A stretch of 64,000 bases of DNA from contig NZ_JABVED010000015.1 of NCBI RefSeq assembly GCF_014323725.1, forward strand, positions 1 to 64,000, given 5' to 3'. The translations under genes and the position numbers were made by a program. How positions within the stretch are numbered: position 1 is the first letter of the stretch; the number at the start of each line of letters is the position of its first letter. This stretch comes from Actinokineospora xionganensis (GTDB lineage: Bacteria > Actinomycetota > Actinomycetes > Mycobacteriales > Pseudonocardiaceae). The notes beneath the pieces are model-generated. The model saw nothing but the letters and a program-made list of their open reading frames with translations. It searched no databases and was not told where the DNA came from. Shown here one piece after another: positions 14,606-29,854 of the stretch.

Positions 14606-15781
14606 CTAGAAGGTCAGCTTCCAACTATCGATGTAACCCGTGTCGTAGCTGTAGACGTCGCGGACCTGGAGCTTCCAGGTGCCGTTCGCCACCTCCGTGG
14701 ACGCGTTCACCGTGTAGGTGGTGATCACGTTGTCGGCCGAGTCGCTGCTGCTGGAGTTCTTCATGCGGTATGCGGAGCCGTCCGGGGCGATCAGGTCGAT
14801 CACCAGGTCGCCGCGCCAGGTGTGCTTGATGTCGACGCCGACCTGAAGAGTGGACGGCGCGTTGCCCGTGACGCCGGAGACGGTGATCGAGCTGGTCACC
14901 GCGCTGCCCGCGTCGGGGATGTTGACGTTGTTGGTGTTCTCGAAGACCTTGCCGGTGGGCGGGGGCGTGGTTCCACCGCCGAGTTCGTCGGCCTTCGCTT
15001 TGATGGCCGCGGAAAGAGCGCTGACTTCGGCGTACACGCCCGGGTAGTTCGGGCGGGCGCAGCCGTTGCCCCAGGAGACGATGCCGACCTGGATCCAGGC
15101 GTTGTTGGCGTCGCGGCGGACCATCGGGCCACCGGAGTCGCCCTGGCAGGTGTCGACGCCGCCCTGGGTGTAGCCGGCGCAGATCTCGACGGCGGGCTTG
15201 AGCGACGGGTACGAGGACTTGCAGGAGGTGTCGTTGACGAACGGTACGTCGGCCTTGAGCAGGTACCGCTGCTGGCTGCCGCCTTCGGACGCGGCGCCCC
15301 AGCCCATCACGGTGAACGTGCCGTTGTCGTAGGCGTTGGTCATCGCGATCGGCAGCTTCGCCGCGCCGGTGATCGGGCTGGACAGCTTGATCAGCGCCCA
15401 GTCGCCGCCAGCGGAGGTCGAGTAGCCGGGGTTCTTGTAGACGTAGGAGGACGTGCGCTTGATGGCACTGGTGCTCTGCAGGTCGACCACGCCGTAGGTG
15501 GCGGTGATGCTCGTGTTGTTGCCCGTGCCGCTGACGCAGTGGGCGGCTGTGAGGACGAGCGAGTCGGAGTACATCGCGCCGCCGCAGCCCATCGAGAGCC
15601 GGACCATCCAGGGAAATTCGCCTTGCGCCGCAGGGCTTCCGCCGACGACCTGCGGGGAGACATCATCCGACGGTGGCTGGGCCCCGACGGCCTGGCCGGT
15701 CGACATGCCCACGAGGACGGCGGCTCCCACGACCACCATCGAGGCCCTGCGTAACTTCCTCAACCAGTTGCGCTCGATCAT
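14606..15781 (-). CDS. secreted trypsin-like serine protease with C-terminal P/Homo B domain
   Basis: A 391-aa exported S1 protease. It has a signal peptide (basic start, hydrophobic core at about 14-33), a short propeptide, and a mature N-terminus at VVGG. The catalytic triad is intact: His81 in LTAAHC, Asp127 in DWALIKL and Ser216 in CQGDSGGP; the preceding [12 protein letters not shown] suggests Asp in the S1 pocket (trypsin-like). After a Thr/Pro linker, residues 280-391 form a P/Homo B (proprotein convertase) jelly-roll domain shared with four other genes here. AAAGGA lies 7 nt before the ATG. It is a close relative of the next gene upstream (16002-17213), suggesting tandem duplication. 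Confidence 0.92.
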
Positions 15782-15856
15782 CTTTGCGTCCTTTCACGAA
15801 CCACAGTGCGAGTTGTGGTGCCAAACCGCGGCTGGCTGCCGCGATCCGTTCGTGGC

Positions 15857-15894
15857 GCCCGGGGCAGGGGATAAACCCTGCCCCGGGCGTTTTT
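15857..15894 (+). terminator. intrinsic terminator, T-tract on the plus strand
   Basis: A perfect 13-bp stem (15857-15869 with 15876-15888, loop GATAAA) is followed by GTTTTT on the plus strand. Both flanking genes are on the minus strand, so the T-tract points against them. It may stop an antisense transcript, or work as a U-less terminator about 115 nt downstream of the 16002-17213 gene. Confidence 0.7.
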
Positions 15895-27847: not shown

Positions 27848-28264
27848 CCACACCCTCCCATGCCGGTGTTCAGGATCGGTGTCAACCCGACGTTCTTCGG
27901 AGCCTAAGCCGAACGAGGGTGATCCGGAACTCACTTGCCGCCGCGCAACCGGCAAAGCGATCTTAGTCGGCGTTCCGTGGCAGGAGATCGAGCTCGACCT
28001 CGGTGAAAGACGGGTAGGTATACCTACTGATACCCGGATTGTTCGCAGGGCGCGTCCGGCTGAAGGTGATCGGCAGTGGCTGTCAGTTGTTCACCCTGCC
28101 CGGCAGCCACGCCTCCGAGTGGCGACTTCCACTCGGTGGAGTGAACAAAGGGGCCTGTTGCGAGGCCGCGTCGGTCCCGCCCTAGCACGGGACCGGCTCG
28201 GCGACTTGTCGCTGTCGCGGTGTCACACCGCGCTCGAACCCTGCAGAGTAAGGACAGCCAAGCA
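27848..28264. promoter_or_regulatory. divergent promoter region between LAL regulator and subtilisin genes
   Basis: A 417-bp gap with no gene. It contains the perfect 14-nt palindrome GTAGGTATACCTAC (28014-28027) followed by GATACCCGG, a good candidate operator. AAGGA lies about ten nt before the downstream ATG. Confidence 0.6.
28014..28027. promoter_or_regulatory. 14-bp perfect palindrome, candidate regulator site
   Basis: GTAGGTATACCTAC is fully self-complementary, lies midway in the divergent region, and resembles the length and symmetry expected of a LuxR-type dimer site. A related dyad (TCCGTA-gggg-TACGGA) precedes the Ig-repeat protease gene at 33563-33578. Confidence 0.5.
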
Positions 28265-29854
28265 ATGAGAAAACTGAAGACCCCACTGAAAGCCCTGCTC
28301 GTGGGTTCCGCCGCCGTGGGTCTCGTGGCGCTCGCGGTGCCCGCGTTCGCCGCCCCGACCTCCGCGGCCGCGATCCAGAACGCCAACGCGCCCGGCACCG
28401 TCCCGGACCGCTACATCGTGGTGTTCAAGGACGACAGTGTCAGCCGTGCCTCCGTCTCGGCCAAGGCGAACGACCTGGCGGGCAAGCACGGCGGCGAGGT
28501 CAAGTACACCTACGACTCCATCCTACGTGGCTTCTCCGTGTCCATGAAGGAAAGCCAGGCACTCGCGCTGGCCAAGAACCCGATGGTCAAGTACGTCGAG
28601 CAGGCGGTGTACGCCACCGTCACCGACACCCAGCCGAACGCGCCGTGGGGACTCGACCGGGTCGACCAGCGCGACCTGCCGCTGAACCAGACGTTCGACT
28701 ACCCGGCCAACCCGGGTCAGGGTGTGCACGTCTACATCGTCGACTCCGGCCTCAACTCCGCGCACCAGGACTTCACCGGCCGCGTCGGCGCGGGCCGTGA
28801 CCTCGTCGACAACGACTCCACCCCGCAGGACTGCAACGGCCACGGCACGCACGTCGCGGGCTCCGCGGCGGGCACCACCTACGGCCTGGCGAAGAAGGCG
28901 ACCGTCCACGCGGTGCGCGTCCTCGACTGCGCGGGCAGCGGCACCAGCGACGCGATCCTCGGCGGCATGAACTGGGTCAAGACCAACGGCATCAAGCCCG
29001 CCGTGGTGAACTTCAGCATCGGCTGCCGGTCCCGCTGCACCCAGCAGAGCTGGGACGACGGCGCGAAGGCCGTCATCGACAGCGGCATCCAGTGGGTTCA
29101 GGCGGCGGGCAACTCCAACGACGACGCCTGCTACTACAGCCCGCAGAAGCTGCCCGCCGCCGTCACCGTCGGCAACAGCAACCAGCAGGACGCCCGCTAC
29201 ACCGGGACCGGCCAGAGCAACTACGGCTCCTGCCTGGACATCTGGGCTCCCGGAACCAGCATCGTCTCGGCGTCGCACTCGAGCAACACCGGCACCGCCA
29301 CGATGACCGGCACCTCGATGGCCTCCCCGCACGTCGCGGGCGCCGCGGCCCTCTACCTCGGCCAGAACACCTCGGCCACCCCGGCCCAGGTGCGCGACGC
29401 GCTGGTCAACAACGGCTCCACCGGCAAGCTCAGCGGCATCAACACCGGGTCGCCGAATGTGCTGCTCTACACGGGCTTCATGAACGGCCCGGTCGACCCG
29501 CCGTGCTCCGCGGCGACCAACACCAACGACGTGGCGATCCCGGACAACAACACCGCGATCACCTCGTCGGTGACCGTGACCGGCTGCTCCGGCGCGGGCA
29601 CCGCGGCCACCTCGGTGAAGGTGGACATCAACCACACCTACACCGGTGACCTGGTGATCGACCTGGTCGGCCCGACCGGCAAGGTCTTCAACCTCAAGCA
29701 GGCCGGTGGCGCCAGCTCCTCGACGGGGGTCCACCAGACCTTCACCGTCAACACCGGCGCCGAGACCGCCAAGAACGGTGAGTGGAAGCTTCGGGTCACC
29801 GACGTCTACCGGTACGACACCGGCAACATCGACGCCTGGACGCTGACCTTCTAG
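28265..29854 (+). CDS. secreted subtilisin-like S8 protease with I9 propeptide and P/Homo B domain
   Basis: A 529-aa exported subtilase. The signal peptide (about 1-30) is followed by an inhibitor-I9 propeptide (residues 48-120, starting RYIVVFKDD). The S8 domain has Asp160 (YIVDSGLN), His193 (GHGTHVAGS), Asn in AAGNSND and Ser351 (GTSMASPHVAG). It is of the proteinase K/aqualysin subgroup with several cysteines likely in disulfides. The P/Homo B domain spans about 425-529 and ends GNIDAWTLTF. The order resembles aqualysin-type proteases in which the C-terminal domain can be removed on maturation. ATG at 28265 begins the only credible signal peptide. Confidence 0.93.
   Translation: MRKLKTPLKALLVGSAAVGLVALAVPAFAAPTSAAAIQNANAPGTVPDRYIVVFKDDSVSRASVSAKANDLAGKHGGEVKYTYDSILRGFSVSMKESQALALAKNPMVKYVEQAVYATVTDTQPNAPWGLDRVDQRDLPLNQTFDYPANPGQGVHVYIVDSGLNSAHQDFTGRVGAGRDLVDNDSTPQDCNGHGTHVAGSAAGTTYGLAKKATVHAVRVLDCAGSGTSDAILGGMNWVKTNGIKPAVVNFSIGCRSRCTQQSWDDGAKAVIDSGIQWVQAAGNSNDDACYYSPQKLPAAVTVGNSNQQDARYTGTGQSNYGSCLDIWAPGTSIVSASHSSNTGTATMTGTSMASPHVAGAAALYLGQNTSATPAQVRDALVNNGSTGKLSGINTGSPNVLLYTGFMNGPVDPPCSAATNTNDVAIPDNNTAITSSVTVTGCSGAGTAATSVKVDINHTYTGDLVIDLVGPTGKVFNLKQAGGASSSTGVHQTFTVNTGAETAKNGEWKLRVTDVYRYDTGNIDAWTLTF

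Follow-up and report, generated by a model that had tools for sequence, protein, structure and literature searches.

The first 64,000 nucleotides of contig NZ_JABVED010000015.1 from the soil actinomycete Actinokineospora xionganensis, referred to here as the window, contain a 15-kb group of open reading frames (ORFs) that end in the P, or Homo B, domain known from Kex2 and furin (PF01483, P_proprotein; Table 1). A preliminary description of the letters alone had proposed that five exported hydrolases of three catalytic types share this C-terminal module, and profile searches bear this out. All five ORFs, those of the S1 and M14 genes included, match PF01483 with 66.3–76.0 bits against a curated cut-off of 21 bits, and their catalytic families (Trypsin twice, Peptidase_M14, and Peptidase_S8 twice) are likewise above the Pfam cut-offs. 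No kexin-type S8 domain precedes P in the Pfam matches of the S1 and M14 proteins, and the two S8 proteins fall in the general S8 family only, with NCBIfam models such as mycosin remaining below their cut-offs. The P copy of the M14 protein, an enzyme called carboxypeptidase T under some database names, is predicted to form a beta-sandwich with the Kex2/furin P fold. None of the five proteins has a sortase or membrane-anchor tail (LPXTG-type motif, hydrophobic stretch, basic tail), their P domains ending at most four residues from the stop codon.

Table 1. Genes and P domains of the protease cluster, with window positions and Pfam scores.
Feature	Position	Strand	Details
S1A trypsin-like protease	14606..15781	-	Trypsin 165.2, P_proprotein 74.4 bits; signal-peptide-like start, Thr/Pro/Gly linker, C-terminal P
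P domain, first S1 protein	14609..14923	-	
Second S1A trypsin-like protease, C-terminal P	16002..17237	-	Trypsin 156.5, P_proprotein 71.6 bits; directly downstream of M14 gene
P domain, second S1 protein	16017..16331	-	64-nucleotide identical run with M14 P domain
M14 carboxypeptidase, C-terminal P	17380..19146	-	Peptidase_M14 208.4, P_proprotein 76.0 bits
P domain, M14 protein	17383..17697	-	model pLDDT (predicted local distance difference test) 97.8
S8 subtilase, C-terminal P	22853..24883	+	Peptidase_S8 137.2, P_proprotein 70.2 bits
P domain, first S8 protein	24563..24874	+	without Cys pair
Large ATPase-LuxR regulator (LAL-type), 999 residues	24956..27955	-	AAA_16 + GerE (Pfam)
S8 subtilase with I9 propeptide, C-terminal P	28220..29854	+	Peptidase_S8 126.4, Inhibitor_I9 35.1, P_proprotein 66.3 bits
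P domain, second S8 protein	29534..29851	+	

The common motif pattern given in the preliminary description holds, with minor adjustments. A VNIPD start and a YIDSWKL end are common to the copies of the two S1 proteins and the M14 protein, and the S8 copies differ at both places, starting with QITD or AIPD and ending with YINSWKLDF or [17 protein letters not shown]. A further motif is present in four of the five copies, with TGDLVIDL in its place in the S8 protein at 28220, and DSADNV also occurs in four of five. Pairwise identity is 81–85% among the S1, S1, and M14 copies and 51–60% between these and the S8 copies. Random placement of the 23 P domains of the genome never brought five of them inside 15243 bp (0/100000 rounds), a result that loses force because two of the five genes, those of S1 type, are paralogues in tandem. 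Two of the listed ORFs probably begin too early, the likely starts being a GTG at about codon 33 of the M14 ORF and a site near codon 99 of the S8 ORF at 22853, since relatives are shorter and signal-peptide-like sequence begins there.

A search for the domain elsewhere in the genome, as the preliminary description had recommended, was productive. The assembly (6.81 Mb, 70 contigs) holds 23 PF01483 matches in 22 ORFs, all 23 above the cut-off. Nine carriers are S8 proteins and six are of S1 type, among them one V8-like (Trypsin_2) and one alpha-lytic-type protein, the latter so typed from its prodomain alone and carrying a P match of 42 bits. The others comprise the M14 protein, a fusion of M4 and M28 parts that carries P twice, one protein each of the metallophosphoesterase, choice-of-anchor-B, and sortilin/BNR-like types, and two broken-frame copies. 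In the fusion (L024:3549-7304, plus strand, 1252 residues), P follows both the thermolysin-like M4 part and the aminopeptidase-like M28 part. The frame is broken just before P in an S1 gene (L028:7199-7573, minus strand) and in a PA-domain protein (L035:4729-7124, plus strand), by assembly error or decay. The choice-of-anchor-B protein matches TIGR04312 with 527.4 bits against an NCBIfam cut-off of 100 and bears P at its C-terminus; having no known hydrolase domain, it makes the notion of a hydrolase set, as first put forward, too narrow.

In relatives, S15 and single M28 hosts and tandem P domains also occur, and the host types in the genus number at least ten (S8, S1 trypsin, V8-like, alpha-lytic-type, M14, M4-M28, S15, phosphoesterase, choice-of-anchor B, and sortilin/BNR-like). 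Two related genomes, G201 and G190, contain 31 and 35 P matches, respectively. At least one match was found in 87 of 150 genomes sampled from the family and in 42 of 396 genomes sampled from Actinomycetota, with at most six matches per genome outside the genus; these phylum copy numbers are lower bounds, as at most 13 candidates were scored per genome. The best 120 homologues listed for the M14 and for the S1 query all carry PF01483, although the queries contained P and so favoured P carriers. Two S1 proteins with P from Alloactinosynnema bear the database name "Aminopeptidase Y", which is at odds with their trypsin domain.

Several features mark P as a module that is separable from its hosts. 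It ends at most five residues from the stop codon in 99 of 113 domains from five genomes, and the stretch before it is rich in Pro, Thr, Gly, Ser, Asp, and Asn (0.64 versus 0.44 in the rest; 109 domains). Orthologous hosts also occur without it. All 20 fetched candidates for P-less M14 proteins end 5–21 residues past the catalytic part, and a quick M14 tree of 55 rows with many open forks requires at least seven changes between presence and absence of P. The 80 best of 105 M14 loci in a collection of named species divide into 29 with P and 51 without it, P lying in a different frame in one of the latter; the scan used six peptide patterns, one of them from the P domain, and the ratio is no census. 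The M14 gene of Lentzea aerocolonigenes (L172) has its P domain in a different frame from the catalytic part. Choice-of-anchor-B proteins likewise occur with and without P. A pair of cysteines, one just before P and one inside it, is complete in 61 of the 113 copies, missing from 48, and represented by the outer residue only in four and by the inner only in none, a covariation which suggests a disulfide that has been lost in most hosts of the subfamily discussed next.

One subfamily of P domains evolves in concert across non-homologous genes in Actinokineospora and in genome G008. A tree of the 23 domains of the A. xionganensis genome unites nine of them, carried by S1, V8-like, M14, choice-of-anchor-B, and S8 proteins, in a single clade (96/97), whose members on different host types are 75–91% identical in P and 21–32% identical in the rest of the protein. 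When 113 domains from five genomes are compared, this mobile subfamily (42 rows) is largely blocked by genome, with the exception of the close pair G000/G201, where most copies group with those on the same host. Domains that do not belong to the subfamily (S8a, BNR, phosphoesterase, and the window S8 copies) mostly pair with their orthologues; exceptions that group by genome include an M14 copy of G190 that joins S8 and two tandem-P hosts in G201. The tree has few columns and its bootstrap is not settled. Hosts were typed by best BLAST match to seeds from the A. xionganensis genome, which leaves some S8 and alpha-lytic types rough, and a Pfam check of the typing covered 19 of the relatives' 81 carrier ORFs. 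The broken-frame fragment from L028 was dropped before counting, one weak G190 match (22.4 bits) lies outside the 34 copies analysed from that genome, and G076 is represented by its cluster domains only (5 of 19).

Homogenisation was quantified on six author-chosen orthologous host groups, 26 of the 42 subfamily rows, with genome labels shuffled within hosts in 5000 rounds. With the close sister G201 set aside, copies on different hosts of the same genome are 80.1% identical (43 pairs), compared with 75.8% for orthologues (24) and 74.1% for copies that differ in both host and genome (123), a difference that no permutation reached. The corresponding values are 81.1, 79.2, and 76.0% for all five genomes and 82.2, 77.7, and 76.1% with both G201 and an odd V8-like copy of G098 removed (each 0/5000). 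The effect is strongest among clustered genes (84.7 versus 77.4; 5/5000). Across 15 genomes, the P domains of M14 and S1 proteins are 79.4% identical within a genome and 70.8% between genomes (0/20000 permutations). Labels on a 20-domain P tree change 14 times for host and six times for genome, in protein and DNA alike; this tree is weakly resolved (one of 17 inner branches starred), and the label counts stand without a shuffled control. A DSP insertion occurs in eight of the 34 G190 copies, on S8, M14, S1, and V8-like hosts that lie megabases apart, and in none of 79 copies from the other four genomes.

Recent conversion has left discrete tracts in some of these genes. The M14 and S1 copies of P in G008 share 127 identical nucleotides up to the stop codon, beyond which the stop codons differ and the 3' flanks are unrelated; agreement at fourfold-degenerate sites is 83%, compared with about 60% between genomes. 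The similarity also stops at the stop codon in G098, where the longest run is 88 nucleotides and fourfold agreement is 81%. An M14 and an S8 gene of G190, whose host types were checked, share an identical run of 111 nucleotides, and the M14 and S1 genes of the window one of 64. Among pairs with typed hosts of different type, exact runs of at least 60 nucleotides occur in 11 of 1137 same-genome pairs and six of 3640 between-genome pairs. The mobile subfamily of Actinokineospora and G008 shows both marks by which conversion is recognised, paralogous segments that within a genome exceed orthologous ones in likeness and tracts that end where homology is lost. Outside the recent tracts, gene conversion would still be the main agent.

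The gene neighbourhood recurs as well. Thirty M14 loci, one per genome and the best-matching among 197 genomes with a match, include 19 in which an S1 gene directly follows M14 on the same strand; both genes have P in 15 of these pairs and M14 alone in three, and one is cut by a contig end. In G211, G133, and Embleya hyalina, neither the M14 gene nor the S1 gene beside it carries P. The AAA_16-GerE regulator sits among S8, M14, and S1 genes with P in G201, G190, G076, and G098. It also lies among S8 and M14 genes with P and S1 genes in five of six named Actinokineospora loci (globicatena, NBRC 105648, auranticolor, diospyrosa, and terrae, not iranica), the S1 gene carrying P in three of the five; NBRC 105648 is G076 again and is not independent. 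The regulator was not found in 74 other named loci. It is a candidate regulon switch for the protease cluster.

The full order S1, S1, M14, aldehyde dehydrogenase, short-chain dehydrogenase/reductase (SDR), S8, LuxR, S8 is intact in G201. The two dehydrogenase genes, which in the window lie between M14 and S8 (19264-21734, minus strand), do not occur in the pieces fetched for G190, G076, and G098. Adjoining the cluster is a gene for an S1 protease that lacks P and continues into several Ig-like repeats (30953-33454, minus strand). Most simply, the gene set would serve extracellular protein digestion, with trypsins and subtilisins making peptides for the carboxypeptidase, a reading supported by the recurrent M14-S1 neighbourhood. 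The earlier suggestion that endoproteases feed a carboxypeptidase gains indirect support from the same recurrence and from that of the LuxR-regulator cluster.

That copies are kept alike across non-homologous enzymes suggests one common purpose. We favour, at about an even chance of being right, the reading that P serves as a shared tag for binding or retention, which holds one extracellular protein-digesting set in one place. P is an autonomous, mostly C-terminal module of predicted beta-sandwich fold, usually mounted on a Thr/Pro/Gly-rich linker, and its spread has taken it onto unrelated exported proteins; in Actinokineospora, gene conversion between otherwise unrelated genes would keep its copies alike within each genome. 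The tag would retain the subtilisins, trypsins, and carboxypeptidase of the LuxR-linked cluster together, probably at the cell's own surface or matrix. Three considerations lead to this reading: a domain packed against its host should become host-specific, yet the copies are genome-specific; nothing requires a substrate-binding module to vary between species; and the choice-of-anchor protein bears P at the end where its NCBI family name implies an anchor. A more specific form, which we put forward tentatively as a possibility, makes P a dockerin-like address label, by which tagged exported proteins would dock to one species-specific surface or matrix partner, conversion and selection keeping the copies matched as the partner drifts.

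A number of observations weigh against the tag. Its binding role and its partner are things that we infer, and the presence of P in so few of the sampled Actinomycetota genomes implies that its function is dispensable in the phylum. The signal at fourfold sites is small (63.1 versus 60.2 without G201, 29/5000; 98/5000 with G201; 249/5000 when G201 and the V8-like copy of G098 are both left out), so that many homogenised residues must be old or held by selection and not the product of recent conversion. Pairs from different genomes and different hosts share runs of up to 74 nucleotides, which means that conserved codons account for part of the runs. Dispersed hosts show a weaker effect than clustered ones (77.5 versus 72.4, 19/5000; without the V8-like host 81.4 versus 75.7, 300/5000), and the M14/S1 pair is not homogenised in five genomes of the genus g30 (52–69%), where the partner from the same genome comes only 6th to 15th among 15.

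The alternatives differ in what P is taken to do. P could bind insoluble extracellular protein or glycan and so concentrate the enzymes on it, in the manner of a carbohydrate-binding module, but genome-specific homogenisation is unexpected if every species meets the same environmental substrate, and one of the P carriers has no known hydrolase domain; we regard this as unlikely. Intramolecular packing of the kexin type, in which P lies against the catalytic domain, whose folding and stability depend on it, may apply to some S8 hosts. As a general account it is quite improbable, given orthologous M14 and choice-of-anchor-B proteins that lack P, near-identical copies on unrelated folds, and the little host signature in P of the mobile subfamily. 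The preliminary description had offered folding, secretion, anchoring, or activation as roles of a shared tag, and of these the tag idea itself is supported, while the P-less orthologues and the scant host-specific sequence speak against a folding role for the M14 host.

It is similarly doubtful that P is a removable C-terminal propeptide or secretion aid, clipped after export by the S8 and S1 proteases of the same set. The C-terminal position, a linker that is probably open to proteolysis, and hosts that are mostly proteases themselves would all suit such a role, but P-less orthologues are presumably exported too, and 105 residues are strongly conserved. Least is to be said for a neutral mobile module whose similar copies recombine and become homogenised without functional meaning, a reading that we consider very improbable. 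Conversion tracts do coincide with the module, as expected from homology-driven exchange, the effect is strongest between neighbouring genes, and P has been gained or lost repeatedly. Against this, agreement is higher for amino acids than for fourfold sites (80% versus 63%, the latter with a chance level of about 52%), which implies that P is under selection, and four species each maintain 20–35 copies per genome.

Several known systems come close to the one described here. In the convertases, P packs against the catalytic domain and stabilises it. P is usually seen as an integral, stabilising part of a convertase; here it is an add-on on unrelated exported proteins, occurring on S1, M14, M4/M28, S15, phosphoesterase, and propeller-like hosts too. 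Unlike Kex2/furin P, it stands mostly at the very C-terminus, is absent from many M14 orthologues, and has been exchanged between hosts. We know of no multi-host use of P for the Aeromonas sobria serine protease (ASP). This bacterial kexin-like S8 protein (3hjr/3wqb) is a single S8 enzyme with a chaperone, ORF2. A survey of prokaryotic Subt-P_proprotein enzymes, in the portion available, reports bacterial proteases with a C-terminal P, one of them with two P domains, and lists P with S8 only, in contrast to the non-S8 hosts found here (PMC2605481).

The P architecture on S1 and M14 proteins is nevertheless already known to databases, so that it is not the oddity it had first appeared. Public entries for M14, S1, and choice-of-anchor-B proteins of Actinomycetota show the same combinations with P, annotated automatically. 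No paper on function, cluster, or concerted evolution was among the matches listed by a search that left most subscription journals outside it.

Cellulosomal dockerins offer a parallel: one small module ends many unrelated enzymes, and a shared species-specific partner makes the copies alike within a species. Dockerin domains themselves were absent from the Pfam matches of 21 of the 22 genome carriers (all but one broken copy) and of 19 of the relatives' 81 carrier ORFs. The likeness therefore lies in a module that ends many enzymes, and the difference in the lack of a dockerin domain and in a cohesin-like partner that is postulated only. The P domains offer a case in which shared docking outside the cell can be tested as their function, with concerted evolution seen on one module across non-homologous genes, and if the dockerin-like label is correct, they would represent a so far undescribed Gram-positive targeting or assembly system built from the convertase P domain.

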